In this document: in pieces, positions 3,848 to 24,692 of the stretch | Position numbering within the stretch: position 1 is the stretch's first letter | Layout of the letters: the number at the start of each line of letters is the position of its first letter | Source of the DNA: Cyanosarcina radialis HA8281-LM2 | GTDB lineage: Bacteria > Cyanobacteriota > Cyanobacteriia > Cyanobacteriales > CCAP-1448 | Assembly: GCA_019359615.1 (NCBI GenBank) | Contig: JAHHHA010000025.1 | Coordinates: forward strand, 1-64,000 | Reading direction: 5' to 3' | Length of the DNA stretch: 64,000 nt | The notes under the pieces: model-generated | What the model was told of the DNA's origin: nothing | The model's database searches: none | What the model saw: the letters and a program-made list of their open reading frames with translations, nothing else | Translations under genes and position numbers: made by a program

Positions 3848-3981
3848 TTTATTCGCCGGGCATCAATTTTATCGAACCAATTAGCTCCAATCTATCCCTC
3901 ATATCAAATCCGCTTAGCAAAAGTGGGTTTGCCCTCACCCCCAACCCCTCTCCCACCTCAAAGAAGCCCTCTCCTACAAGG

Positions 3982-8626: not shown

Positions 8627-9610
8627 TTAATAAAATTGCTGGCTCCAACGTCTATATTTCATAATTGCTCCCTCGCTCTCGCATAGAGTTGGGCGATCGC
8701 AATAAATTTTGTTTTCCCAAATTGAGATATCTTGTTCTAAATCTCGTCCGATTTTTTGCATCAATATTTTAGGCGCAAATAATTTAGTTAAAGTTTTGCT
8801 AAAAATTTTCCTCATGCTAAAAATCAAGTCAATCTCAAGTAATTTTTCCTCGATCGGTGTCAACATAAATATAGCCAAAAAATCGAGTTCTATAACTGTT
8901 TCAATGCAAGCGCGGCTGACTTGACACCCTAAACCGTAGTAACTTATCTCTAAAGAGCCTAGATTTTCTTTGCCTAGCAGTCCAGCAGCAAACGACAGAT
9001 TATAAATGGGTAATAATTGGTGAACTAAAATAGCACCATCAATCTCAATACTTTGACTTTTTAAAGAAACAAAGGTTTGACGGTGAAGGAAAGGAGAATG
9101 AGCGGTATCAACACCGTTTTCTGCTATTTCTTGAGGATTCGTCCTCACTTGCCATCGTCGTCGTTTAAACGGAATCCAATCTTTACAGGTATATTCTGGC
9201 AGCAATGGTATCTCCCAGTCTGGAGGTTTACGATCGGGATGATAATACATCAAGATCGTGCCGTTAACTTCGCGTACTTGCCAGGATTGAATTTGTACTT
9301 TGGGAAGAACTTTACAAGCGTACGGAATTTCGACACATTGGCCCTCACCATTAAAACGCCAGCCATGAAAAGGGCATTGAATTGTCTCGTCATTGACTTT
9401 TCCTCCATATCCTAAATGTGCGCCTAAGTGAGGACAATGAGCATCAAAGAGATGGAGTTTACTTGTTGCCGTGCGAAAGAGAACGAAGTCTCGATCGAAA
9501 TAGTGAAGCGCTCGCACTTGTCCCGGCAGCAATTCATCGCTATAAGCAATCCGAAACCAACCGCTAGGAAATGGTAAAGGAGCGTTTGTTGTCGACCTTT
9601 CATCGTTCAT
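8627..9610 (-). CDS. Rieske oxygenase, DAF-36/Neverland (sterol 7-desaturase)-like
   Basis: The 327-aa protein has an N-terminal Rieske [2Fe-2S] domain with ligands C59-P-H61 and C79-PF-H82 in CPHLGAHLGYGG...CPFHGW. A catalytic domain follows with a mononuclear iron site D168-x2-H171-x4-H176 (NGVDTAHSPFLH). The CPHLGA/IPY pattern resembles eukaryotic cholesterol 7-desaturases and bacterial KshA steroid hydroxylases. It is paralogous to the protein encoded at 16248-17231. It lies 15 bases downstream of the oxidosqualene cyclase stop, so it is likely cotranscribed. I infer a role in sterol desaturation or C4 demethylation; a reductase partner is needed but not identified. Confidence 0.85.
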   Translation of the reverse strand: MNDERSTTNAPLPFPSGWFRIAYSDELLPGQVRALHYFDRDFVLFRTATSKLHLFDAHCPHLGAHLGYGGKVNDETIQCPFHGWRFNGEGQCVEIPYACKVLPKVQIQSWQVREVNGTILMYYHPDRKPPDWEIPLLPEYTCKDWIPFKRRRWQVRTNPQEIAENGVDTAHSPFLHRQTFVSLKSQSIEIDGAILVHQLLPIYNLSFAAGLLGKENLGSLEISYYGLGCQVSRACIETVIELDFLAIFMLTPIEEKLLEIDLIFSMRKIFSKTLTKLFAPKILMQKIGRDLEQDISIWENKIYCDRPTLCESEGAIMKYRRWSQQFY

Positions 9611-9625
9611 CGCTGAATTTACTTA

Positions 9626-11674
9626 TTACTTATTACTTTCATACAACCCTAACGCCCACACGGGAAAATAACAGCGGTAAAGGACGTAATCTAGCAGTGC
9701 CGTCTTAAAAAAGACGCCCGCTGGATCTTGTTTTGGCCAAGTACCATCTTCACGCTGCGATCGCATCAAGAAATCTACACCTTTTTCTATTGCTCGATCG
9801 CGATACGTGCTTCCGCACGCGCTGGCGCGAACGGTTTTAGCTTCTAATAGTGCTTTCAATGCCCAAGCGGTTTGAATTACCTGACTTTCAGTGTGTTCGA
9901 CGTACTTCTGGGTCAAACAGCCTTCAAAATGCTCGCCCCAACCGCCATCCGCCCGTTGCTTGCTAAGTAACCAATCGCAAGCCTTGGCAATAGCTAGATC
10001 GTCAACCGCTTCTCTAAAGGCGAGTAAGCCTTGAATGCCGAACATGGTGCCATAGATAAAGTTGACTCCCCAAAAGCCCGCCCAACAACCATCAGGCTGT
10101 TGTTGGTGGTGCAACCAGGTTTTTCCTCGTCGGACGGCATTGTCGATTTCTCGATCGTCACTTCCAACCCCTCTCGACCTCACCCCCGGCCCCTCTCCTG
10201 CAAGGAGAGGGGAGACAGGAGAGGAGTAATGTTGGCGAAACGCATCTAATGCCGCCAAACACGAAGCCGTACACTCGACGTAGGAATATTCGGTCATCGA
10301 ATTAGCAAACATTTCTGCTGGATTCAGCCATTCCAAAGTTGAGGCTATTTTGCGTCGTTCGTAACTGCCAAACCCTCCATCTCGGTTCTGACAGCGCAGC
10401 AGGAAACAAATGGCAGCAGTAAAATCTACACCAGGCAGCGTTTTTGCCGATCGCCCCAACAATGCGAGCAGGGCTTCAGCGGTACAATCGCTCACGGGCC
10501 AGCCGTGCCAAACCCCTGCAAAACAAAAGCCGCCTTGAGGATCGATGCGAAAATAGCGAGCGCCATCTGCCAAAGAAGTCTGAATCTGTTGGGTAGCCAA
10601 AAATGCTTGAGATTTGGTCAAGCGAGCGCCTACATCTACGTAGGGACTGGCTGCTTGTAAAGCTTGAATGGCAAAACTCGTATCCCAAGTGCTGCTGCGG
10701 GCCCCAGCGATTCTCAAACCGTTCTCCTCATCCTGCCACATCCAAGCAGAAAAGCGATCGCGTGCTTTCTTGAGGTCTTCATCTTCAGGATCGTGCAACC
10801 ACAAGGCAATCAGATTCAGCAAGCCGCTAACAGGAGAAATGCAGGTATAATCGGTGGTTTGCAGTTCAAAACGGATGCGATCGACTATTTCATCCAGGAT
10901 TTGGTTTCGCAGTTTTGGGAGATGCCAGCGATCGAAAATGGCAGCAAAATTATAGAAAAGACACAATACTAACCCAGGAGGGCTATAAACCTCTGCTTCA
11001 CGGAGATTCGATCGGGCAGCTTTAAAGGAGATCGTTGCATAATCTCGTACATACAACTCTGCCCGCAACTGCTCGATTAACGGATTAACGGGGACTTGAA
11101 ATTTGCGACCGTAAATATAAGCCATACCCGCATAGATTAATCTGGTATGGCAGTAATAGTTAGCTGGATGGACGGGCAGCCAGCGGGGAAGTCGCCACAC
11201 TTCCGGCAAAACTGGATTCACTCCCCGCCAGTCGTAGAGATTTAACATCGCCAGCCAGAACTTGCCCCAAGAAGGAATTGCGATCGCTCCTCCCTGTTGG
11301 CGGATAAACTGATGGGCGGGAATCAGTAATGGATCGTCAGGTTCAATGCCTAGAACCCTGGCTGCTACATAAACTAATGTGGTGACAAACAGGTAGGGCT
11401 GCGACTTTTCGTGCAGTCCCCACAACCCATCTGGCAGACGTGTGGTTTCAAACTGATGCAACAGTGCTTTTCGTTCTTCAGCCGCAGTAGGTGTTTGGGT
11501 GATGTATTGCATCAGAATGTACTGCGCGGCTAACATCGGACACCAGACAACCTCGCCTTCCCAAGATCCATCTGGTGCTTGCTGCTGCAATAATGCCTGA
11601 ACACCGCGTTGCAAGGCAGTTAGAGATGTTTTTGAGGAGGTTTCTGGCATACGAGGTTCTAGAGCGATCGCCAT
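9626..11674 (-). CDS. oxidosqualene cyclase (sterol-type triterpene cyclase)
   Basis: The 682-aa protein cyclises 2,3-oxidosqualene to the first sterol. The catalytic motif is V394-S-D-C-T-A-E400; this VSDCTAE is the oxidosqualene-cyclase signature, whereas hopene cyclases have DxDDTA. Several QW repeats are visible (QQAPDGSWEGE at the N-terminus, QQQPDGCWAGFWGV, KQRADGGWGE, SQREDGTW) and the C-terminus reads YRCYFPVWALGLY, as in lanosterol and cycloartenol synthases. H390 and V394 occupy the positions of plant CAS H477 and I481; V at the latter favours lanosterol-type products. Residues 485-507 and about 612-628 are translated repeat DNA. A second ATG lies eight codons downstream. Confidence 0.93.
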   Translation of the reverse strand: MAIALEPRMPETSSKTSLTALQRGVQALLQQQAPDGSWEGEVVWCPMLAAQYILMQYITQTPTAAEERKALLHQFETTRLPDGLWGLHEKSQPYLFVTTLVYVAARVLGIEPDDPLLIPAHQFIRQQGGAIAIPSWGKFWLAMLNLYDWRGVNPVLPEVWRLPRWLPVHPANYYCHTRLIYAGMAYIYGRKFQVPVNPLIEQLRAELYVRDYATISFKAARSNLREAEVYSPPGLVLCLFYNFAAIFDRWHLPKLRNQILDEIVDRIRFELQTTDYTCISPVSGLLNLIALWLHDPEDEDLKKARDRFSAWMWQDEENGLRIAGARSSTWDTSFAIQALQAASPYVDVGARLTKSQAFLATQQIQTSLADGARYFRIDPQGGFCFAGVWHGWPVSDCTAEALLALLGRSAKTLPGVDFTAAICFLLRCQNRDGGFGSYERRKIASTLEWLNPAEMFANSMTEYSYVECTASCLAALDAFRQHYSSPVSPLLAGEGPGVRSRGVGSDDREIDNAVRRGKTWLHHQQQPDGCWAGFWGVNFIYGTMFGIQGLLAFREAVDDLAIAKACDWLLSKQRADGGWGEHFEGCLTQKYVEHTESQVIQTAWALKALLEAKTVRASACGSTYRDRAIEKGVDFLMRSQREDGTWPKQDPAGVFFKTALLDYVLYRCYFPVWALGLYESNK
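10178..10216. repeat. in-frame palindromic repeat inside the oxidosqualene cyclase gene
   Basis: CCCCTCTCCTGCAAGGAGAG-type palindrome preceded by CTCACCCCC. It is translated within the cyclase as SPLLAGEGPGVRS, between two QW-motif regions. The same repeat occurs at 19873-19911 in the CYP51 fusion. Confidence 0.8.
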
Positions 11675-13598: not shown

Positions 13599-14939
13599 TC
13601 AGTCGTCTGGTATGGGAATTCTCTTTACCCTAATAGAGCAACCAAGACGCGGTAAACCGATCGCAATTGGTATATACAGCCACTCTTTAAAAGAACCGAT
13701 CGCTTGAAATATCTGTCGCCATTGTCGTTGAGTTGCCTTTTTTTGAATTAATTGTGCGATCGCTATTTTCAAACCCTTGAGGAAGGAACGGCTAAACGGT
13801 AACAATTTGGTTTCCATCGTTGCCAGCAGTTGCATTGTTCGTTGGCATTCGTTCGGATCTTGCCGCCACATTTGGTAAATTGCTTGACGTATGGCGATCG
13901 CGGTTTCATCCTGACGGGTAAATACTTGATAAAGCGCATGAGCGAGCAATTCCGGTACGTAAGTATTCATCAGGCGATCTTGTCTGAAGCGATCGAAGTT
14001 TTTACTAGTTACCAAAGCGATCGCATCTTTAAATCCCAACGTCATCCCTGTTGCGGTAATCGGGTGACAGTATCCGGTTGCATCCCCCACTAAAGCTTGT
14101 TCGGCTTGCCCGTAGTAGAGGCGGGGACAAAATTGATTGGCACACCATCCCAATTGCTTATGCTCTAATGCTTGTTGGAAGGCAGGTAAGAGTTTCTCTG
14201 GCAAAACGGAGCGATACATCTCCCATAAGTAAGCCGTTTTATTTCGGCTATCCCGAAAGTGCGAGATGGGTACGTCTAAACAAAGCCGAATGCGATCGAT
14301 CCCGATACGATAAGCCAGAACCGGGCCGGGGCCTCCCAAGAAGATATGTCCGAACCCTTCAAAGGGTAACTCTACGCCTTCTAGCATCACCCCAGCCATG
14401 TAGGATAGCGATCGACTATCGTTAGTAACTCCCATCTGTTGGCGAACGATCGAAGTTCGTCCGTCTGCGCCCACTATCTGTTCGGCCATGACAGAAATCG
14501 TGCCGCGATCTGGTTGAGAAAAACTTAATTCTCGATCGACAATTTTGTTGACTTTAGCAAACGGCAAATAATAAACGTTTGGATGTGCTGTCGCCGCTTC
14601 TCGGATGGTTGACACTAAAAGATTGTGTTCGCAACTGACCCCTTTTGCTCCATCGGGGTAGTTAAGACGAATAGGTTCGCTGCGATCGTCTGGAAACACT
14701 ACAAAGCCTTCTCCTTGAGGATAAGCTGAAGCGATCGCTCCTAACTCTACCTGCAAGTGCTTTAGGATCTCTACTCCTGGCGGGTGCAGCCATTCGCCAG
14801 CAAATCGCTTTGCCCTGTCTGGGTTGGCTTCCAATAAGAGGACAGATGCGCCTTGGTGGGCGAAGGCTAAGGCTGTAGCGCAGCCAACTGAGCCAGCACC
14901 AATAACAGCAACATCTGGGGTTTTAGGTAGCGTTTTCAT
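13599..14939 (-). CDS. squalene epoxidase-like FAD monooxygenase
   Basis: The 446-aa flavoprotein has DVAVIGAGSVGCATA (Rossmann GxGxxG, residues 14-19), GEWLHPPG (48-55, matching GELLQPGG of squalene monooxygenases), GADGRTS (157-163) and LVGDATGYCHPITATGMTLG (283-302), which aligns with the GDAxNMRHPLTGGGMT signature. I infer conversion of squalene to 2,3-oxidosqualene, the O2-dependent step feeding the cyclase. The ATG at 14939 is preferred because the region upstream is a dispersed repeat and the FAD motif follows at once. It lies between the C14 reductase and the TetR island. Confidence 0.87.
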   Translation of the reverse strand: MKTLPKTPDVAVIGAGSVGCATALAFAHQGASVLLLEANPDRAKRFAGEWLHPPGVEILKHLQVELGAIASAYPQGEGFVVFPDDRSEPIRLNYPDGAKGVSCEHNLLVSTIREAATAHPNVYYLPFAKVNKIVDRELSFSQPDRGTISVMAEQIVGADGRTSIVRQQMGVTNDSRSLSYMAGVMLEGVELPFEGFGHIFLGGPGPVLAYRIGIDRIRLCLDVPISHFRDSRNKTAYLWEMYRSVLPEKLLPAFQQALEHKQLGWCANQFCPRLYYGQAEQALVGDATGYCHPITATGMTLGFKDAIALVTSKNFDRFRQDRLMNTYVPELLAHALYQVFTRQDETAIAIRQAIYQMWRQDPNECQRTMQLLATMETKLLPFSRSFLKGLKIAIAQLIQKKATQRQWRQIFQAIGSFKEWLYIPIAIGLPRLGCSIRVKRIPIPDD

Positions 14940-14944
14940 ATTTA

Positions 14945-14997
14945 TTCTTGAGTCCGCGACGGCGGACTTCGATCGTGTAGCTGCGGTTTCAACCGCC
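14945..14997. repeat. dispersed repeat with two short palindromes
   Basis: GTCCGCGACGGCGGACTTCG followed by GCTGCGGTTTCAACCGCC. A closely similar copy lies at 53216-53272. Confidence 0.75.
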
Positions 14998-15009
14998 AAC
15001 ATAAATCTT

Positions 15010-16110
15010 TTAGTAGACAAACGGCATCATCCGAAACCGAGCCTTAGTACAATAAGTAGTCCACAAATCTCCGTACTTGCTGCGACAGCGGTGTTCGTCG
15101 CGCCTTGCCCGATGGATGAGGAGCAAGCACAACCACAAAGGTAGAAGGTAAGGAATAAACGAGTGGAAACCTGTAGTGAGAGCGATCGCTAAATACAAAC
15201 AAATTTCGCCCGTATAATTCAGCTTGCGACCGATTCCCCACCAGCCGGAAATCAATAGCTTTCCACCTACAGTTCGAGCGGGTTGACCCCAAATATTGGC
15301 ATTTGGATTTTGCTTGAATCTGTGTTTCTGTAAATTTGCTCCTCGAAATAACCACAAGCCAAATAGGTAAAGCAAGCTAATAGCCGCAACTGCATTCCAA
15401 GAAATTGGTTCTATGCGATCGACTAAAAACCAACCGACAATGCTGTAGAAAAATGGCACTAGCACCAAATCTCCCCACACCAGCATGAATCCAAACTTTT
15501 CGGCGATAACATCCCAGGTTGAGAGCATGAATTCTTCGTAGTAGTAGTGGCTGGCTAGGTACAACCACCAGAACGCCTGAAACATCCACATTGGAACCGA
15601 GATGCGATCGTAAGTTTCATATTGCACGAAAGCAAACGAAGCATTAATCAGTCCCAGTCCAATTAAAGAAGGTTGGTAGGCAAACATTTTTAGATCCACT
15701 CCCAACCAAGTTGGATTGAATTCGACTCCAAACCACAAATCGCTCAATATTTTACCCGGTAGAGGTTTTTCTCCCCCGCTTGCCCTTTTTCCTGTTACGT
15801 ACAAGATCCCAGTTCCAATAAAGGCAAACAGGTTAGCGACTGCGAACAAATACCAGAAGTATTCACGAACAGGTGCTAGAGACAGATTAAATAGTAGAGT
15901 ACCAGCAGCTACAGCGATCGTAGTTGCGACAAACAACGCCAATCCATTGAGTTTGTATAATTTGCAGGTTCCATCTGGTTGGATAGCTCCCTCTCGTAAC
16001 TTTCCAGGCAGGTACTTAGTGCCGATGAATGTAATAATTATAAAGCCTAGAAACATCAAAGTGGCGTATAGCGAATAAACTGGGCTTGTTAAGTGAAAGA
16101 TATTATTCAT
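15010..16110 (-). CDS. sterol C14 reductase (ERG4/ERG24/DHCR7 family)
   Basis: The 366-aa polytopic membrane protein has the two family signatures. The first is LSDLWFGVEFNP at residues 122-133, matching DxFxGxxxNP. The second is the C-terminal LLISGWWGIGRKLNYTGE (285-302) with HRARRDEHRCRSKYG (333-347) and a P-x-x-Y end, MMPFVY. The family uses NADPH to reduce sterol double bonds (C14, C7 or C24(28)). The adjacent CYP51 makes C14 reduction the best guess, but the paralogous activities cannot be told apart by eye. The start ATG precedes the first membrane helix. Confidence 0.92.
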   Translation of the reverse strand: MNNIFHLTSPVYSLYATLMFLGFIIITFIGTKYLPGKLREGAIQPDGTCKLYKLNGLALFVATTIAVAAGTLLFNLSLAPVREYFWYLFAVANLFAFIGTGILYVTGKRASGGEKPLPGKILSDLWFGVEFNPTWLGVDLKMFAYQPSLIGLGLINASFAFVQYETYDRISVPMWMFQAFWWLYLASHYYYEEFMLSTWDVIAEKFGFMLVWGDLVLVPFFYSIVGWFLVDRIEPISWNAVAAISLLYLFGLWLFRGANLQKHRFKQNPNANIWGQPARTVGGKLLISGWWGIGRKLNYTGEICLYLAIALTTGFHSFIPYLLPLWLCLLLIHRARRDEHRCRSKYGDLWTTYCTKARFRMMPFVY

Positions 16111-16247: not shown

Positions 16248-17231
16248 CTATGATGTATTTCCCCTGTAGAATTGGCTAGCCCAATGTCGATATTGAGCGA
16301 TCGCTCCTTCACTGTCGCAGAGTGCGGGTTGATTGCGGTAAGCTTTGTTTTCCCAAATGGGGATATCTTGGGAGATGGTATTTCGCCCTTCTCTAATTGC
16401 CTTCAACGTTAGCAGTTGAGTTATCGGTTCGTTCCAAACTTTTTTCATGCTAAAAACTCCGTTCAATTCGATATATTCCTCGTCGATTGGCGTTGAGAGA
16501 AACATAAATAGATACTGCAATTCCATCGGTTTCACTACTACCCTATTGACGGCACAACCCAAACCGTAGTAAGTAATTTCGTGAGGTCCTGCTACTTCTT
16601 GACCTGCCATTCTGGCAGCCCAGAATAGGTTATAAGTATGATTGATGAAATACCGCAGCACCGAACCTTCCACTTTTATACCGTCGTTCTCAATCTCTTT
16701 AGTTTGTTGGGGGTGAACTAAGGGGGCGTGGAAGATGTCTATGCCATTTTCGTTAATTTCTTGGACGTGCGATCGAATCTGCCAGCGTTGAAAGGCACGG
16801 AAAGGAACCCAATCTTGAGAGGTGTATTCGGGGAACTCGGGAATTTCCCAATCGGGCGGTTTTCCTTCGGCGTGGTAATAGGTAAAGATCGATCCGTTGA
16901 CTTCTTTCACTTGCCAGTTGTGCATCCGGGCTTTGGGTAAAATCTTGTTGGCATAGGGAATATTGGTGCAGCTTCCTTCGCCGTTGAAGCACCAACCGTG
17001 AAAGGGACATTGAATGGTTTCACCCTTAACTTTGCCCCCATAAGCCAAATTAGCTCCTAAGTGGGGGCAATGAGCATCAAGAATGTGGGGAATCCCTTTT
17101 TCTGTGCGGAACAGCACGAGGTTTTTGCCAAAATAATGCAGTGATTTAACAGTTCCTGATGGTAACTCATCGCTGGCAGCAACTCGGAACCAGCCGTTCG
17201 GAAAGGGTGTAAATGGAAAGCGGTATTTCAT
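16248..17231 (-). CDS. Rieske oxygenase, DAF-36/Neverland-like (second copy)
   Basis: This 327-aa protein is a clear paralogue of the Rieske protein at 8627-9610, with the same length and architecture. Rieske ligands are C55-P-H57 and C75-PF-H78; the mononuclear iron triad is D165-x2-H168-x4-H173 (NGIDIFHAPLVH). The CPHLGANLAYGGKV and IPYANKI segments resemble cholesterol 7-desaturases. Two such paralogues in one cluster suggest separate positions or successive oxidations on the sterol nucleus. It lies downstream of a third, more distant Rieske gene and upstream of the C14 reductase. Substrate is inferred from context. Confidence 0.87.
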   Translation of the reverse strand: MKYRFPFTPFPNGWFRVAASDELPSGTVKSLHYFGKNLVLFRTEKGIPHILDAHCPHLGANLAYGGKVKGETIQCPFHGWCFNGEGSCTNIPYANKILPKARMHNWQVKEVNGSIFTYYHAEGKPPDWEIPEFPEYTSQDWVPFRAFQRWQIRSHVQEINENGIDIFHAPLVHPQQTKEIENDGIKVEGSVLRYFINHTYNLFWAARMAGQEVAGPHEITYYGLGCAVNRVVVKPMELQYLFMFLSTPIDEEYIELNGVFSMKKVWNEPITQLLTLKAIREGRNTISQDIPIWENKAYRNQPALCDSEGAIAQYRHWASQFYRGNTS

Positions 17232-17352: not shown

Positions 17353-18495
17353 TCAATCGGATAGTTTTTCATGTGAATTTCTAATTTTGGAAATCCCAGT
17401 TTTTCGCAGGAGGTATTTTGAATTTTTAATTCCTAAATGTTCTTCCCATTTATGAATTGTTAGCTTCTGAAATAAATGAACTGCGGGGTTGAGTTCTACT
17501 ACTTGCTTATTAAAATGAGTTTCATAACCCTCTTGTTCTGCCTCTACCGCAAAACCATCTTGACTTAATAAAGGTTTAATAAGTATGGGGTTGGCGATTT
17601 TGAGAACGTAGGTCATCAATTTTTGAGGAAATAGTATAGATGTAAATGGAATTTTGATCGCATTGAAATAGAACAAGAAGAATACACGACTTGTTCGCTC
17701 GTCAATTGGAAGAATAAAGCACCAATGCTTGATTTTATCTCCAGTATTCGACCATTGATAGGGATATTCATAGCAAAGATCGATCGCGTTGGTATTTACC
17801 TGTTGGCGATCGACAAATAATCCAGATATCTTACCGCCTCCAATTAAGGTTTCGTAGGAAACGAAAACGCGATCGCCCGCTTCTTCACACCTCGTCAGCT
17901 TAGCATCGACAAAAGGGCGATATTTGCGGTGCAAGTGAGCGTGAGTAAAATCGCTGACGTTATCGATAATCATCGAGTGGTGGGCTTTCCAAGTAAAATC
18001 TAACGGCACGCACGCCCAAGGATTTTCGCCTTCTAATTCGAGCAGATCGGGAATTTTTCTAATTTGAGATTGAGAGCGATCGCCAGGAAAAATCCAAATC
18101 AATCCATAACGCACCTGCACGGGATAAGTTTTTAATTGACAAGTTGGCATCGGCTTGTCAAAAAGTTCGTGGGGTATATGTACGAGTTTGCCCTGATTGT
18201 CATATGTCCAGCCGTGGTAAGCACAAACTAAATTATCGCGATCGACCTTTCCTAAAGAAAGCTTTAACTGCCGATGAGCGCAGCGGTTTTCTATAGCGTG
18301 TAATTGCTCGTTATTATCTCGATACAGAGCGATCGAATTGTGCCAAAACTTGACTTCTACTACCTGTTCTCGGCGAACTTTACTGTCATACTCTACGGCG
18401 TACCAATAATCGGGGTGCATTCCAGCCGATCGGGCTTTTTGCAGCCGATTTCTCGCTTCTGTAAATGACGGAGGAGATAAATTATCTGTGTTCAT
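17353..18495 (-). CDS. Rieske oxygenase of ring-hydroxylating type (possible sterol C4 demethylase)
   Basis: The 380-aa protein has Rieske ligands C72-A-H74 and C91-AY-H94 (NRCAHRQL, CAYHGWTYDNQGKL) and an iron site D182-x2-H185-x3-H189 (NVSDFTHAHLH). It is only distantly related to the two Neverland-like copies. Bacterial C4 sterol demethylation in Methylococcus uses a Rieske oxygenase (SdmA) with an NAD(P)-dependent dehydrogenase (SdmB). The NSDHL-like module encoded six bases upstream makes an equivalent pairing plausible here; this is inference. The start codon is embedded in an ACACAGATGA repeat, so the exact N-terminus is uncertain. Confidence 0.82.
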   Translation of the reverse strand: MNTDNLSPPSFTEARNRLQKARSAGMHPDYWYAVEYDSKVRREQVVEVKFWHNSIALYRDNNEQLHAIENRCAHRQLKLSLGKVDRDNLVCAYHGWTYDNQGKLVHIPHELFDKPMPTCQLKTYPVQVRYGLIWIFPGDRSQSQIRKIPDLLELEGENPWACVPLDFTWKAHHSMIIDNVSDFTHAHLHRKYRPFVDAKLTRCEEAGDRVFVSYETLIGGGKISGLFVDRQQVNTNAIDLCYEYPYQWSNTGDKIKHWCFILPIDERTSRVFFLFYFNAIKIPFTSILFPQKLMTYVLKIANPILIKPLLSQDGFAVEAEQEGYETHFNKQVVELNPAVHLFQKLTIHKWEEHLGIKNSKYLLRKTGISKIRNSHEKLSD

Positions 18496-18501
18496 CTGTG
18501 T

Positions 18502-20985
18502 TCATCTGTGGTTAAAAAAAATCGATCGATATCGCACCAAACAAGGTTGCTTCGGTCCGACCACAAAAGTTGAGTAATTAGGTTCGTATTTAGGTTGTAC
18601 CAACTCCAACTCAAACCGCTGTAACAAAATGCTCCAAATCACCTTAACCTGTTGGTAAGCGAATGCCTGACCGATACAGCGATGCCTGCCACCCCCAAAT
18701 CCAATCAAGGCATACTTACTTTGGAGGTGTTCCTCGCGTCCAGGGGCAAAGCGATCGAGATCGTACTTTTCGGGATGGCCAAAAACTTCCGGGAGGTGGT
18801 GAGAAACAGCGGGCGAAATCATGGCTAATTCTCCAGCCGGGATCGAATATCCTTCGTACTCAAAATCTCGCAAAATCTTTCGCATCAACATCACCAACGG
18901 TGGCCGCATCCGTTCGGCTTCGCGAATAGCTCGTTCCAAGCAAACCAATTTTCCTAACGCTTCCAGGGAAATTTCTTGCCTGCTGCCAAACACCTCTTGT
19001 TGCTCTTGCAAAATGGCAGACAGATATTGAGGATGCTGCAACAGTAAAATCCCAGTCCAAGCAGCTAAAACGGCGCTAGTATGCTGTCCGGCGAATAACA
19101 GCGTTAGTAACAACCCAGTGATATTGTCATCACTCAAGGCAGTACCATCGGCATAGGAAGCAGTCATCAGAGTTTGCAAGAAATCTTCGGTTTCTGTCAA
19201 GAGCGATCGCCTGTCAGCGATAATCTGAGAAATCAGTTCGACCATCCGCACTCTAGCTCGATCGCGTCGTTGAAAAGAAGGTAGCGGCAAGTAAGGATGG
19301 AAAAACGCCAAAAAATTGATTCCACCTTCGAGATCGTAGTACAACTTAGCAAATTCAGCCGTCAAGTGAGTGCGAAATTCCTTACCGATGAGGCAACGAC
19401 CAGCAATGAAAATCGTCAGTTCGTTCATTGCCGTTAGTAAGTCAATCTCCCCAGACTCTCCCCAATTATCCAAGTAAGCTTGCGCCTCCTGAGCCATAAC
19501 CTGAGCGTAAGCTTGCATCCTCTCTTCCCGCAAAGCCGGAAACACGAATCCCAGTTGCTCGTCCATCATTTCTGGACTGGTATCGTAAGCAATCCCCTTC
19601 CCAAAAATTGGCACGGTAAACTGATAGGCTTCCTTAGCACTAAATTGGTCGTCAGGGGCGCGAAAGAAAGCCTGATTCGCCTTCGGTCCCGTCAGTACCG
19701 TTACCCGATTGCCCAACAACAGAAAAGAGAAAATCTCGCCAAAGCGTTCTCGTCCCCGCTGGAGCAACCCCACCGGATCGCGGGCAAATTCTACAGCGTG
19801 TCCCAAGTAGGGCAATCCTCCTTGTAGTTCTGGGGGAGTTTTCGTTTTCGATCTCACCCCCAACTCCTTTCGGCCCTCACCCCCAACCCCTCTCCTGCAA
19901 GGAGAGGGGAGAACGAGAGAAGGAGCAAGGGAGTTCATTTCCCCCCTTCCCTTGTAGGGAAGGGGGGCTAGGGGGGTTAGGTTTGTCTTAACGATCGCTC
20001 CCCGCCGTTTAAAATCTGCATAAGCCTCCTCAACTGCCTCTCGAATCGACGTTGGCTGATATCCCAATTCTTCGATCGCTTTATGACAATCTGCCTGTCG
20101 ATTCATCCTGAGAATGCGAACTGCCCCGGAAGTAAAACGCCTTGGTACTTGGGGAAAAAATCGCGGCAAGATCGAGTCCGCCACCTTCGCAATTCCTGCC
20201 ATCACCGCTCCTGGCAACCGTAAAGCCGGACGGGGATGTCCGGTGACTTCCTCAAAAATTCCCATCAGTTCGTCAACCGTTAGAAACTGAGTGCTAAAGA
20301 TATATTTTTGTCCGCCGCGCCCCTTTTCCATCGCCAAAATATGTCCTTCAACAATATCTTTGGCAGCGACAAACTCAAACCCTCCAGGAACGTATGCCAG
20401 GAGTTTTCCGTTGGCAAAATCTACCAGCGTCCGTCCCATGCGCGAGGGCTTGTAATCGTGAGGGCCTAAAATGGCACAAGAAACGGCAACTACCACGTTC
20501 AATCCGTCGGCAAAAGCTTTCAGACACTCGTGTTCGACAAAGATTTTGGTAAATCCGTAGGGCAAGTGGGGAGTAAAAGGATAAAAAGGTACAGTTTCGT
20601 CACTAGGTCGAGTAGGATGATGACCAACAGCACTAAAAGAACCAGAAACTACAACTTTGCTTACCCCAGTTTCTAAAGCAGCGCGAAGGATGTTTTGAGT
20701 GCCAATAACGTTGCAGTCATAAATTTCTCGATCGAAACTGGCATTGCCATCTAAGGTAGAGACTAAAGCCGCACAGTGATAAATGCGATCGCACCCCTTC
20801 ACTGCCGTCACTATAGCTTCCCAGTCCCGCAAATCTCCATACACCCGTTCCACATCCAGACCATCAACCGCTGCATTGTTGCTGCCCTCTCGCAACAGTA
20901 CCCGCACGGTTTGCCCGTCGTCCAGCAACCGCCGCACTAAGTTAGCACCTAAATGACCGCTTGCACCAGTAACTAAGATTGTCAT
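18502..20985 (-). CDS. fusion of NSDHL-like 3beta-hydroxysteroid dehydrogenase and CYP51 sterol 14-demethylase
   Basis: The 827-aa product joins two sterol enzymes. Residues 1-333 form an extended SDR of the 3beta-HSD/NSDHL type (TGASGHLG 6-13; catalytic YGFTK 143-147). Residues about 384-820 form a CYP51: substrate-recognition stretch FGKGIAYDTSPEMMDEQ (461-477), I-helix FAGQHTS (631-637), ExxR as E689-R692 and heme loop FGGGRHRC (763-770, Cys770). The linker, 334-383, is translated from two palindromic repeats (19873-19911 and 19939-19980). CYP51 removes the 14-methyl group; NSDHL-type enzymes oxidise and decarboxylate at C4. The final residues and TGA come from an AACCACAGATGA repeat. Confidence 0.93.
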   Translation of the reverse strand: MTILVTGASGHLGANLVRRLLDDGQTVRVLLREGSNNAAVDGLDVERVYGDLRDWEAIVTAVKGCDRIYHCAALVSTLDGNASFDREIYDCNVIGTQNILRAALETGVSKVVVSGSFSAVGHHPTRPSDETVPFYPFTPHLPYGFTKIFVEHECLKAFADGLNVVVAVSCAILGPHDYKPSRMGRTLVDFANGKLLAYVPGGFEFVAAKDIVEGHILAMEKGRGGQKYIFSTQFLTVDELMGIFEEVTGHPRPALRLPGAVMAGIAKVADSILPRFFPQVPRRFTSGAVRILRMNRQADCHKAIEELGYQPTSIREAVEEAYADFKRRGAIVKTNLTPLAPLPYKGRGEMNSLAPSLVLPSPCRRGVGGEGRKELGVRSKTKTPPELQGGLPYLGHAVEFARDPVGLLQRGRERFGEIFSFLLLGNRVTVLTGPKANQAFFRAPDDQFSAKEAYQFTVPIFGKGIAYDTSPEMMDEQLGFVFPALREERMQAYAQVMAQEAQAYLDNWGESGEIDLLTAMNELTIFIAGRCLIGKEFRTHLTAEFAKLYYDLEGGINFLAFFHPYLPLPSFQRRDRARVRMVELISQIIADRRSLLTETEDFLQTLMTASYADGTALSDDNITGLLLTLLFAGQHTSAVLAAWTGILLLQHPQYLSAILQEQQEVFGSRQEISLEALGKLVCLERAIREAERMRPPLVMLMRKILRDFEYEGYSIPAGELAMISPAVSHHLPEVFGHPEKYDLDRFAPGREEHLQSKYALIGFGGGRHRCIGQAFAYQQVKVIWSILLQRFELELVQPKYEPNYSTFVVGPKQPCLVRYRSIFFNHR
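19873..19980. repeat. two palindromic repeats forming the NSDHL-CYP51 linker
   Basis: First unit 19873-19911 (CTCACCCCC then CCCCTCTCCTGCAAGGAGAG); second unit 19939-19980 (CCCCCCTTCCCTTGTAGGGA then GGGGGGTTAGG). Both families occur intergenically elsewhere in the window. Here they carry no stop in the minus-strand frame and bridge two enzyme domains. Confidence 0.8.
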
Positions 20986-21717: not shown

Positions 21718-22814
21718 TCAAGCTCCAGCCAATGCCCATAACAAAACATCTTTAACTGGTTTGAGCGCACCAAATCGCAGTGCCAGATCTAAAATCGGGG
21801 TTTTTGCAGTTTGTAAAAATAGATGACCCGCCATCAGGCGCTGACCGAGCTTTTTTTGCATTAGCTTAGTGTAGGGTAAAAGATTTTCTGCCGAAGGTTG
21901 AATTCCTCGATCGAATAGAGAACCCAAAAATTCACCTGCTAGCAATCCACTGGCCAAGGCAGTATGAATTCCTTCAGCGGTAGCCGGATCGACCAAATTG
22001 CCAGCTTCCCCAGCTATTAGCATCCCCTGTTGCGATAAAGCTGTGGGTTTGTGATTGACAGCGATCGGGTGAGATACCAGATAATCGATCTGACTGGCAA
22101 ATTTTATCCGTTGGCTCAAACGACTATCGAGAAATGCTTGAAAGCGTTGCTGGGCGTTGAGGTTGCCAAACGCCGGATCGTAGCAAATCCCAATATTTAC
22201 CCGTTGTTGGCTTTCAGGAAAAACCCATCCATAGTAGGGTTTGACTGCCGGATCGAAATAGATTTCTACCGCGTCAGCAACATCTGCTACGCCTTCATAC
22301 CATCCCATGAGAGCGCGTAAAGTAGTTTTGGGTGATCGCCCGGAGCTAGCTTACTCGTACCGCCGTTACAGATAATGACCGCATCCGCTTCGATTTCTTC
22401 GCGATCGCATCTTACCCCTACCAAACGTCCTCCATCTCGCACCAATTCCCGAACGCGCATCCCTTCTAAAAGTTTTGCACCCCGCCTAGCTGCTTCATCA
22501 GCCAGCAAAGTGTCAAAACGCGATCGCAACAGCACGGCAGCCTCATACTTGCTTCGCAATTCAACAACTGTTCCCCCAGCACCACCGACCAAACCTGCCC
22601 GAATCGGGTAAGCCTCCTGACGAATCGTTTGTCCCATACCCATTTGATCGAGCAGATCGAGCGTCCAAGGAGAAAGCCCGCTACCGCAAGGTTTACGCCG
22701 AGGAAAAGTGGCTTTATCCAGCAGCAGCACCTCAATTTGAGAAAATTTGCTCAAGCTCATCGCTGCTGCCGCACCCGCTGGTCCCGCCCCGATAACGATC
22801 GCCCGTTTGCCCAA
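21718..22814 (-). pseudogene. geranylgeranyl-reductase-family flavoprotein with a frameshift
   Basis: Two overlapping frames make one protein. The first (22814 to 22287) has AIVIGAGPAGAAAAMSLS and KPCGSGLSPWTLDLLD; the second (to 21718) has PYYGWVFPESQQRVNIGI and MLIAGEAGNLVDPATAEGIH. These are the FAD-binding, substrate and GD-motif regions of the GGR/ChlP family. Shifting frame near 22335 yields KTTLRALMGWYEGVADV, joining the halves into about 365 aa. The family saturates isoprenoid double bonds. Within this cluster a sterol side-chain (Δ24) reduction is imaginable. It is either a recent frameshift or a sequencing error. Confidence 0.78.
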
Positions 22815-22909: not shown

Positions 22910-23728
22910 TTACTTATTTGCGATCGCTTCTTCAACCAAGCTCATCACGGCGTTTCGACTGAGTTTGGCTTCCCCGCGTTCTAAAGCATCAACAGTCGCA
23001 TGGGCTAAGGCCAAAGGAATGCGGCAAAAATCTAAAGCCGGGCCGTTGGGAAGAGCGTGGGTGTAGGCATCAGCCAAGAAGAGATTTCGACGAGCATATG
23101 TCATCATCCGCTCTTGACTCCAATCATCGGGAAAGAAATCTACCCCGCGTGCCAAGTCTTCAGCATGGTTGCGGAGAATATTGACCGCTTGCAAGCCCCG
23201 GCCGAAGCCAATTCCGTGAGTGCGGTTGGTTTGAGTCCCATCGTACCAAGCCCACAAATCTGAAAGCAACAGACCCACAGCCCCAGCGACCCCAAAGGTG
23301 TAGCGATCTAAATCTGCCTCAGTTTGTACCTGCCAGTTTCGATCGGCCCAGTATGCCATGCGTTCTGCCATAGCTGCCGTGCCGTCCCAAATCCGGGGAG
23401 CGATGGTTTTGGGAGCCAACATCGCCCATTCTCGAATTCTGAGCGTTACTTCTGGCAATACATTCTGATAAGCTGCCAGCGGGGAAAAGGCATGAGGCGA
23501 AAAGCCATCGGTTCCTTCTTGTAGCGTCTGGCTAATGGTGCGTAACAGCGAGGCTTTAGCGGGGTTATCTAGTTCTGGATGGTCTTCTATTTCATCGATC
23601 GCTCGCATACATAAATACGCACCAGCCACCGCAGCTTGTAACCCGGATGGTAGCAGCGCGATCGGAATGTAGAAAGTTCGACTGGTTTCTTTGAGAACGT
23701 CCAAGGCATCTTTTTTAGCAATATCCAT
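22910..23728 (-). CDS. squalene/phytoene synthase family protein, candidate squalene synthase
   Basis: The 272-aa protein belongs to the trans-isoprenyl head-to-head synthases. It shows KETSRTFYIPIALLP (13-27), YLCMRAIDEIED (38-49, first Asp-rich motif), DRYTFGVAGAVGLLL (141-155) and GRGLQAVNILRNHAEDLARG (177-196, second Asp-rich motif). The DRYTFGVAG and NILRNHAED segments are closer to squalene than phytoene synthases by eye. It would condense two FPP to squalene at the head of the sterol pathway. The ATG at 23728 is preferred; the longer frame to 23833 runs through a dispersed AATTCGCAATT repeat. It has no C-terminal membrane anchor. Confidence 0.85.
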   Translation of the reverse strand: MDIAKKDALDVLKETSRTFYIPIALLPSGLQAAVAGAYLCMRAIDEIEDHPELDNPAKASLLRTISQTLQEGTDGFSPHAFSPLAAYQNVLPEVTLRIREWAMLAPKTIAPRIWDGTAAMAERMAYWADRNWQVQTEADLDRYTFGVAGAVGLLLSDLWAWYDGTQTNRTHGIGFGRGLQAVNILRNHAEDLARGVDFFPDDWSQERMMTYARRNLFLADAYTHALPNGPALDFCRIPLALAHATVDALERGEAKLSRNAVMSLVEEAIANK

Positions 23729-24128
23729 TTCTTTTATTCCTCTGGCGATCGAACAATAATCTAACCCGACCAAAACAATTGTCAATTCGCAATTCGCAAT
23801 TGTTAATTCCGGTTTCAGAGCTACTGGATTCATCCATCTTTATGGTGCATATTAGAGCCAGCACGACTCAGCCTGCTGTTGTTAGACGTTATTGAGATAA
23901 TGAGGTATCTTCAAACGCAATTTCCTTGTTTTAAACCTGTTGCCAGCAATAATGCCTCGAATATAACCTACCCTTTTGTGCGCTCTTATGCTTTTGGCGA
24001 TCGACTGGGAACGGACAGCCCTAGATCGATCGAACTCTAGTCCAAAATCCGACTGCTTTTCGATCGGTTTTTCAATTCCAGATAAAAGGGTTATGGACTA
24101 ATCGGTTGTAATAATTCTTAATAATATA
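23729..24128. other. divergent intergenic region between squalene synthase and the ERG2-like gene
   Basis: A 400-bp region with no gene. It contains an AATTGTCAATTCGCAATTCG repeat (about 23775-23823, also at 4446 and 39482) and several GATCGATC-rich palindromes. Promoters for both diverging genes should lie here. An AT-rich TAATAATTCTTAATAATATA run immediately precedes the ERG2-like start. Confidence 0.5.
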
Positions 24129-24692
24129 ATGCGCTACCTATTCGACCCCGATATTTTGCACGAAATCGCCAAACAGGGTATGAATTTACCCTACGAAGAA
24201 ATGTTTGAAACCATTCGATCGACTCTAGAACAAAAGTATCCCGGTCATATTTGCCCCCAAATTGAATGGATTATCAATAACGCTGGGGGCTGTATGTATT
24301 CTATTGCCGTGCTACACGCATCTTTGCACGAATACATATTAATTTTTGGCACTTCTATTGGCACTTCAGGACATACAGGACGGCACTGTACTGAAATCTA
24401 TGATTTCGTAATCGATGGTGAGTTATGGTATTTTTCTGAGGATCGTCCCTTCGATCGAATCGTTCGTCGAGCAGGCGATCGCTACGAGCTAAGTAGGTTT
24501 CACAGCGAAGGATTGAGAATAGGCGATCGGGCTTGGGTATTAGAATATGCTAGAGGGCCGATTCCATTAATGCTACCCTTTGGCTTCGCTGATTCTATTT
24601 TCAGTACCCTCGATTTTAGAACTGTTCTCCGCACGTTATGGATTTACGGCAAATTAGTAGTAAAAGAACTTTTGCTGTTTCCTAAAAGTTGA
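24129..24692 (+). CDS. ERG2/sigma-1 receptor family protein, candidate sterol C8 isomerase
   Basis: The 187-aa protein matches fungal ERG2 and animal sigma-1 receptor over nearly its whole length. Landmarks are YLFDPDILHEIA (3-14), EWIINNAGGCMYS (46-58), VLHASLHEYILIFGTSIGTS (61-80), GHTGRH (81-86), WVLEYARG (136-143; E139 aligns with the catalytic or ligand-binding Glu of the family) and MLPFGFADSIFSTLDF (148-163). The N-terminal transmembrane helix of the eukaryotic proteins is missing. ERG2 moves the Δ8 double bond to Δ7, which would follow C14 demethylation and reduction by the neighbouring enzymes. It diverges from the squalene synthase gene. Confidence 0.88.
   Translation: MRYLFDPDILHEIAKQGMNLPYEEMFETIRSTLEQKYPGHICPQIEWIINNAGGCMYSIAVLHASLHEYILIFGTSIGTSGHTGRHCTEIYDFVIDGELWYFSEDRPFDRIVRRAGDRYELSRFHSEGLRIGDRAWVLEYARGPIPLMLPFGFADSIFSTLDFRTVLRTLWIYGKLVVKELLLFPKS

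Follow-up and report, generated by a model that had tools for sequence, protein, structure and literature searches.

ERG2 or C-8 isomerase genes from bacteria are already in print. The text of PMC10202945, which recalls that cyanobacterial sterol synthesis has historically been controversial, describes in Calothrix sp. NIES-4105 a 21-kb cluster in which oxidosqualene production and cyclisation, C-14 demethylation and C-8 isomerisation are each represented by homologues, as is SdmAB. According to the same text, the Calothrix SdmAB works, and the enzymes used by bacteria for C4 demethylation share no homology with those of eukaryotes. In sponge symbionts, several sterol clusters contain ERG2 together with ERG24, CYP51 and ERG7, as reported in the text of PMC9531527. 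A C-8 isomerase is also mentioned for Methylotuvimicrobium in the text of PMC13277303, and cyclase homologues are listed in Prochloron, Planktothrix and Westiella in that of PMC4919349.

The locus analysed here is contained in the contig JAHHHA010000025.1 of Cyanosarcina radialis HA8281-LM2, and the term window refers to the whole stretch of DNA that was analysed (64,000 nucleotides). Like the Calothrix system, the locus is a cyanobacterial sterol cluster with a C-8 isomerisation homologue. It shares with the sponge-symbiont clusters the presence of a bacterial ERG2 gene alongside ERG24 and CYP51, and differs from them in its host, since the classes listed with clusters in the text of PMC9531527 include no cyanobacteria.

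The sterol gene cluster and the rest of the genome

The ERG2 gene occupies positions 24129..24692 of the plus strand and encodes a protein of 187 aa. Its nearest neighbour is a divergent squalene synthase gene (22910..23833, minus strand), which matches the Pfam family SQS_PSY over its cut-off and gave TIGR01559 as best NCBIfam match (76.2 bits, below the cut-off of 286.75). All the other cluster genes considered here are on the minus strand as well. A geranylgeranyl-reductase-like gene, recognised by a domain match, extends over 21718..22814 in two reading frames (22287-22814 and 21718-22308); it was compared to Bsr, the C-24 sterol reductase of PMC12004948, and by analogy with the text of that paper it may have the same function. 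In the related cyanobacterial loci L004, L015 and L016 the Bsr-like reductase is unbroken and corresponds to single ORFs (364 aa). An 827-aa ORF (18502..20985) consists of an SdmB-like dehydrogenase (aa 1-331; best match NF052578, 341.3 bits, below the cut-off of 600) joined to CYP51 (about aa 381-819; CYP51 match with E 9.3e-121), and next to it lies the gene of an SdmA-like Rieske oxygenase of C-4 demethylation (17353..18495; NF052579, 398.7 bits, below the cut-off of 600). The functions of these SdmA- and SdmB-like proteins are putative, being assigned by analogy with the published systems. The cluster also includes a KshA-type Rieske oxygenase (16248..17231; Pfam and similarity), the sterol C14 reductase ERG24 (15010..16110; Pfam, nearest solved relative 4quv, E 1e-65), a squalene epoxidase (13599..15020; Pfam SE, PF08491), an oxidosqualene cyclase with a VSDCTA motif (9626..11674; nearest solved relative lanosterol synthase 1w6k, E 1.7e-135) and a second Rieske oxygenase (8627..9610), which matched Rieske models only and is presumably KshA-like on the basis of its similarity to the first one.

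With this set of genes, squalene would be converted into its epoxide and cyclised, and the product would undergo C14 demethylation by CYP51, C14 reduction and C4 demethylation by the SdmA/SdmB-like proteins. The sequence-only reading had placed the ERG2 gene beside CYP51 and the C14 reductase. The genes do belong to the same cluster, but they are not adjacent, CYP51 and the C14 reductase being about 3 kb and 8 kb off, respectively, and on the other strand.

At two sites of the cluster, the reading frame runs through a short dispersed repeat. At 19843-20007 this repeat joins the SdmB-like part to the CYP51 part within the 827-aa ORF, and at 10160-10222 it adds about 19 residues to the oxidosqualene cyclase. 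The two sites share 38 nt at 95% identity, and exact pieces of 27 nt and 23 nt are present at 2827-2853 and 3931-3953, respectively.

EBP and plant HYD1 are delta8-delta7 isomerases, from which the same reaction is expected, and their fold is unrelated to that of ERG2. The genome under study differs from systems of this type, in that a genome-wide search gave no EBP match. The only ERG4/ERG24 gene detected was the cluster's own, and no second gene of this type, which might represent a dedicated delta7 reductase, was found in the genome. The ORF at 24129-24692 is therefore the sole candidate that emerged for the delta8-delta7 step. Six FA_hydroxylase genes are also present in this genome. A remnant of a second ERG2 gene is located on another contig (G000:C37:7110-7265, minus strand; L021) and corresponds to the C-terminal 52 residues, with one internal stop. 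It is 83% identical to the window copy, which is its closest match (39/47 residues), and lies near a P450 gene and three distant Rieske genes.

An ERG2/sigma-1 receptor family protein without an N-terminal anchor

The ORF product is a member of the ERG2_Sigma1R domain family, an already known kind of protein. PF04622 is the only Pfam family detected in it (E 3.4e-57, 193.6 bits with respect to a cut-off of 21), and the match spans residues 2-182 of the protein and positions 21-207 of the 210 of the model. The EBP domain (PF05241) was absent from the product in the Pfam scan, and a search of NCBIfam gave no matching model. When the PDB was searched by sequence with E values up to 1, only sigma-1 receptors (S1R) were retrieved, the best of them with an E of 2.3e-34 over residues 3-180. 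The alignment with ERG2 and S1R along the whole length, which had been claimed from the letters alone, is thus confirmed, and coordinates, strand, protein length and each of the motifs quoted with that claim proved correct. Yeast ERG2 and a Xenopus S1R fragment are each 38% identical to the product, and human S1R is 35% identical to it, as compared to 32% between human S1R and yeast ERG2. The yeast ERG2 sequence used in these comparisons fits the ten residues and the residue numbers that are printed in the text of PMC8230181.

A chance ORF, or an ORF called on the wrong strand, was excluded on the basis of the PF04622 match and of the stops on the opposite strand, which in frame 1 has many of them across the ORF; no minus-strand ORF of at least 100 aa overlaps 24129-24692. 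Contamination is thought unlikely, considering that the gene contains a cyanobacterial HIP1 octamer at position 24475, that its GC content (0.43) falls within the range of the cluster (0.41-0.50), and that relatives are found in similar clusters of eight other genomes.

An AlphaFold2 model of the protein, built from nine sequences, was of modest confidence (pLDDT 58.9, pTM 0.54). Among the best 50 Foldseek matches listed, the top 42 were sigma-1 receptors (TMq up to 0.72, E 5.3e-14), and those listed after them were cupins, KdgF and a quercetinase among them. The comparison by VIA-align 2 gave Z scores of 14.1-15.1 for the S1R entries, with 175 aligned residues and an rmsd of 3.7 at Z 15.1, and a Z of 8.4 for the next fold. 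This result agrees with the cupin-like fold of S1R, for which a check by structure prediction had been suggested. In fact, the predicted structure resembles that of the solved S1R: helices, two of them N-terminal and two C-terminal, flank a cupin-like barrel, and a transmembrane anchor is missing.

The lack of the N-terminal transmembrane helix had also been noticed in the sequence-only reading, and it holds. The first upstream in-frame stop is found at 24099, so that the ATG is preceded by nine in-frame codons only, which leaves no room for such a helix and excludes an anchor hidden upstream in the same frame. The maximum hydropathy over 19 N-terminal residues was -0.14, whereas human S1R reaches 2.24 and yeast ERG2 2.30. 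Across the nine cyanobacterial proteins of the family this value did not exceed 1.14, an N-terminal transmembrane helix was seen by hydropathy in none of the eight relatives, and the longest N-terminal extension among them is of 11 residues (L015). With no anchor, the product falls outside the eukaryotic ER-anchored ERG2/S1R subgroup. To call it soluble would overreach, since the C-terminal helix pair is kept, with a strongly hydrophobic first helix (mean 0.61 vs. 0.51 in S1R) and an amphipathic second one (moment 0.44 vs. 0.36 in S1R). These C-terminal helices may hold the protein on the membrane face.

In the article texts searched, we found no description of a missing anchor in bacterial ERG2 or cyanobacterial sterol isomerases, and no anchor analysis of the sponge-symbiont ERG2 was found in the text of PMC9531527. 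The common lack of the anchor therefore appears to be a detail for which no published description was found, although one may still exist in print. An anchorless homologue may crystallise more easily than ERG2 or the sigma-1 receptor, and could help explain the change from a sterol isomerase to a drug-binding receptor.

Pocket residues and the proposed reaction

Ten ligand-contacting residues of yeast ERG2, derived from docking, are listed in the text of PMC8230181, and at eight of these positions the window protein has the yeast residue. N50, Y69, L121, E139 and L149 (window numbers) are kept in 9/9 cyanobacterial proteins, where nine stands for about seven lineages, since three near-identical proteins come from one genus and L018 equals L019. 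M148 is kept in 8/9, T83 in 6/9 (S in the other three) and H86 in 6/9 (Y in the other three). The position of yeast I107 is occupied by L (8) or V (1), and that of yeast Y164 by L (6) or V (3). Y69 corresponds to S1R Y103 and yeast Y105, and E139, whose codon is at 24543..24545 on the plus strand, to S1R Glu172 and yeast ERG2 Glu174. Other residues are S1R-like, namely D92 (D in six proteins, E in three) and R85, R142 and Y173 (9/9 each). Residues in or close to the pocket that are unlike both S1R and yeast ERG2 include I49, C55, Y57, I59 and L129. The two S1R rows of the alignment agree with each other and differ from yeast in 77 columns, of which the window protein is S1R-like in 19, yeast-like in 22 and neither in 36; ten ERG2-like and ten S1R-like columns are fixed in all nine cyanobacterial proteins. 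The pocket positions that tell ERG2 from S1R (N50, T83, H86, M148 and G152) lean towards ERG2 in the window protein. The S1R G91 position is a tyrosine (Y57) in 9/9 proteins. The GXXXG motif of S1R is located at G87-G91. This motif bears on S1R oligomers, according to the text of PMC4106346, so that with Y57 at this position oligomer packing may differ; as it lacks the motif, the product is not classed as a sigma-1 receptor.

With respect to yeast ERG2, the window protein therefore shares the domain family, the Asn/Tyr/Thr/His/Leu/Glu/Met pattern of the pocket (from the list in PMC8230181) and the setting in a sterol pathway, and differs in the missing N-terminal helix, in sequence (38% identity), in its bacterial C4 demethylation partners and in the residue at the S1R D126 position, which is Asp in the window protein and Phe in yeast. 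With vertebrate S1R (5hk1, 7w2b) it shares the fold, the equivalents of Glu172 and Asp126 and the C-terminal helix pair, and differs in the absence of the anchor and of the G91 glycine, in the ERG2-like pocket and in the location within a biosynthetic gene cluster.

Delta8-delta7 isomerisation, the role proposed when only the letters had been seen, stands as the best inference. We consider it quite probable that the ORF product is a working ERG2-type isomerase, which would convert the delta8 sterols of the surrounding cluster into delta7 sterols by shifting the nuclear double bond, and would sit on a membrane face via its C-terminal helices. The isomerase chemistry consists of protonation at C9 and proton loss at C7. 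E139 would be the key carboxylate and, with D92 nearby, likely forms an acid/base or cation-stabilising site.

The protein might catalyse another nuclear double-bond shift, e.g. towards 8(14) or from delta7 to delta8, or act on a related steroid. The substrate may indeed be unusual, given the KshA-type Rieske oxygenases of the clusters and the methyltransferase found at two of the nine loci, and some pocket residues are specific to the cyanobacterial proteins; a related case is a worm C-8 isomerase orthologue, for which the text of PMC13277303 relates the hypothesis that it makes 8(14) sterols. We regard this as unlikely, however, since the window protein retains the yeast residue at most of the listed pocket positions, and the CYP51, C14 reductase and SdmA/SdmB-like set of the same cluster would yield a delta8 sterol. 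Considerably less probable is a non-catalytic, S1R-like binder of sterols or other ligands. The overall identity to S1R is about the same as that to ERG2, the diagnostic columns are divided between the two, and the four residues D92, R85, R142 and Y173 are those of the receptor; the residues at the five positions that tell ERG2 from S1R, the tyrosine at the G91 position, the absence of the anchor and the location in a biosynthetic cluster at 9/9 loci all argue against it.

The least probable explanation, to which we give hardly any weight, is that the gene is a relic with no present role in a decaying cluster. Signs of decay do exist: the Bsr-like gene is in two frames, a repeat is read through in both the SdmB-CYP51 ORF and the cyclase, a broken 52-aa copy of ERG2 is present elsewhere in the genome, cluster genes are in pieces in the loci L017 and L020, and the text of PMC10202945 reports that a Calothrix strain ceased sterol production in culture. 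The ERG2 frame, on the contrary, is intact, E139 and Y69 are present, and the gene appears to be under purifying selection across the clade. As regards the preferred delta8-delta7 isomerase, the presence of an intact and conserved enzyme in a cluster that is almost complete implies that the products go further than delta8 sterols. The pathway is presumably still running in this strain, although the split of the Bsr-like neighbour suggests that it may be failing.

Distribution, constraint and origin

Full-length PF04622 genes were found in nine distinct cyanobacterial genomes, this one included. The gene was present in 1/386 genomes drawn from the phylum and in 1/40 near relatives (this genome in both cases), in 5/217 genomes of family f33, in 3/10 of family f5 and in 5/388 of the order (this genome included), in draws that overlap and in which two genomes occur under two handles each. 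The rarity that had been supposed for bacterial ERG2 homologues is therefore true inside cyanobacteria. No match was obtained in 14 control genomes, and the ERG2 search in viral contigs and plasmids gave nothing. A contig scan of genomes with two peptide patterns retrieved two loci, both cyanobacterial; these patterns are strict, being absent from L015, L016, L017 and L018-L020, and their silence on other phyla means little.

ERG2 is accompanied by an oxidosqualene cyclase and by SdmA-like and SdmB-like genes at 9/9 loci, and by CYP51 and ERG24 at 8/9 each, in some cases fragmented or truncated where the contig ends. At 6/9 loci ERG2 directly adjoins the cyclase; the window copy is encoded on the other strand and lies past the squalene synthase gene. 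Among the genomes of the order, ERG2 was present in 5/6 of those with a full or near-full ERG24 (230.9 bits or more, the remaining matches being at most 41.3 bits) and in 0/382 of the others (Fisher p 8e-11, kinship ignored), where the ERG2 and ERG24 draws were taken as the same 388 genomes, since number and handles agree. The two genes are not obligate partners. In fact, genome G603 has no ERG2 in spite of its ERG24, CYP51 and SdmB-like genes, and G405 (locus L015) contains ERG2, with no CYP51 or ERG24 within 20 kb and no ERG24 match genome-wide. In L015, a distant P450 (26% identity) is found between the cyclase and ERG2.

The dN/dS ratio was estimated on seven of the nine genes, with L019 and L020 omitted since they hardly differ from L018. 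It was 0.08-0.22 in the eight pairs with a finite dS, which are rough values considering that five of the eight dS estimates exceed 1.6, whereas dS was saturated in 13/21 pairs; dN over all pairs was 0.05-0.45. These sequence comparisons suggest that the ERG2 gene is under purifying selection and old in its cyanobacterial group.

Trees were calculated from 12 rows, comprising nine cyanobacterial proteins (two identical), two S1R and the yeast sequence as the sole fungal ERG2. The LG+C20 tree places the S1R rows with three cyanobacterial rows (51/84) and yeast with L004 (36/40), both with weak support, whereas with LG+G4 the nine cyanobacterial rows group together (73/93). The eukaryotic branches are very long, and the two models disagree on where they attach, so that the trees favour neither of the origins considered in the sequence-only reading, an ancient bacterial form or a transfer from a eukaryote. 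A tentative and, in our opinion, rather doubtful proposal is that the anchorless bacterial protein is ancestral, in which case ERG2-type isomerases would have arisen in bacteria as a domain only touching the membrane; its eukaryotic descendants, the ERG2 and S1R lines, would have acquired the N-terminal anchor later. The mixture of ERG2-like and S1R-like fixed residues, together with the bacterial C4 demethylation partners, is compatible with an ancestral anchorless form and does not demonstrate it. These partners fit a bacterial pathway, and say nothing direct on the origin of ERG2 itself. The ORF is a gene with which a bacterial or a eukaryotic origin of the late sterol steps can be tested.

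The nine clusters also differ in the state of individual genes. ERG24 is in pieces in L017 (1254-1682 and 5376-5891), and the cyclase and the SdmB-like gene are in pieces in L020 (8593-9596 and 10530-12802), as if the pathway had been repeatedly lost, or as a consequence of assembly errors. A SAM-type methyltransferase, possibly a C-24 sterol methyltransferase, is encoded in two of the clusters (L003:6010-6921 and L017:13722-14600). In two loci, squalene epoxidase and oxidosqualene cyclase form one ORF of 1114-1115 aa (L004:6541-9885 and L016:10271-13618).
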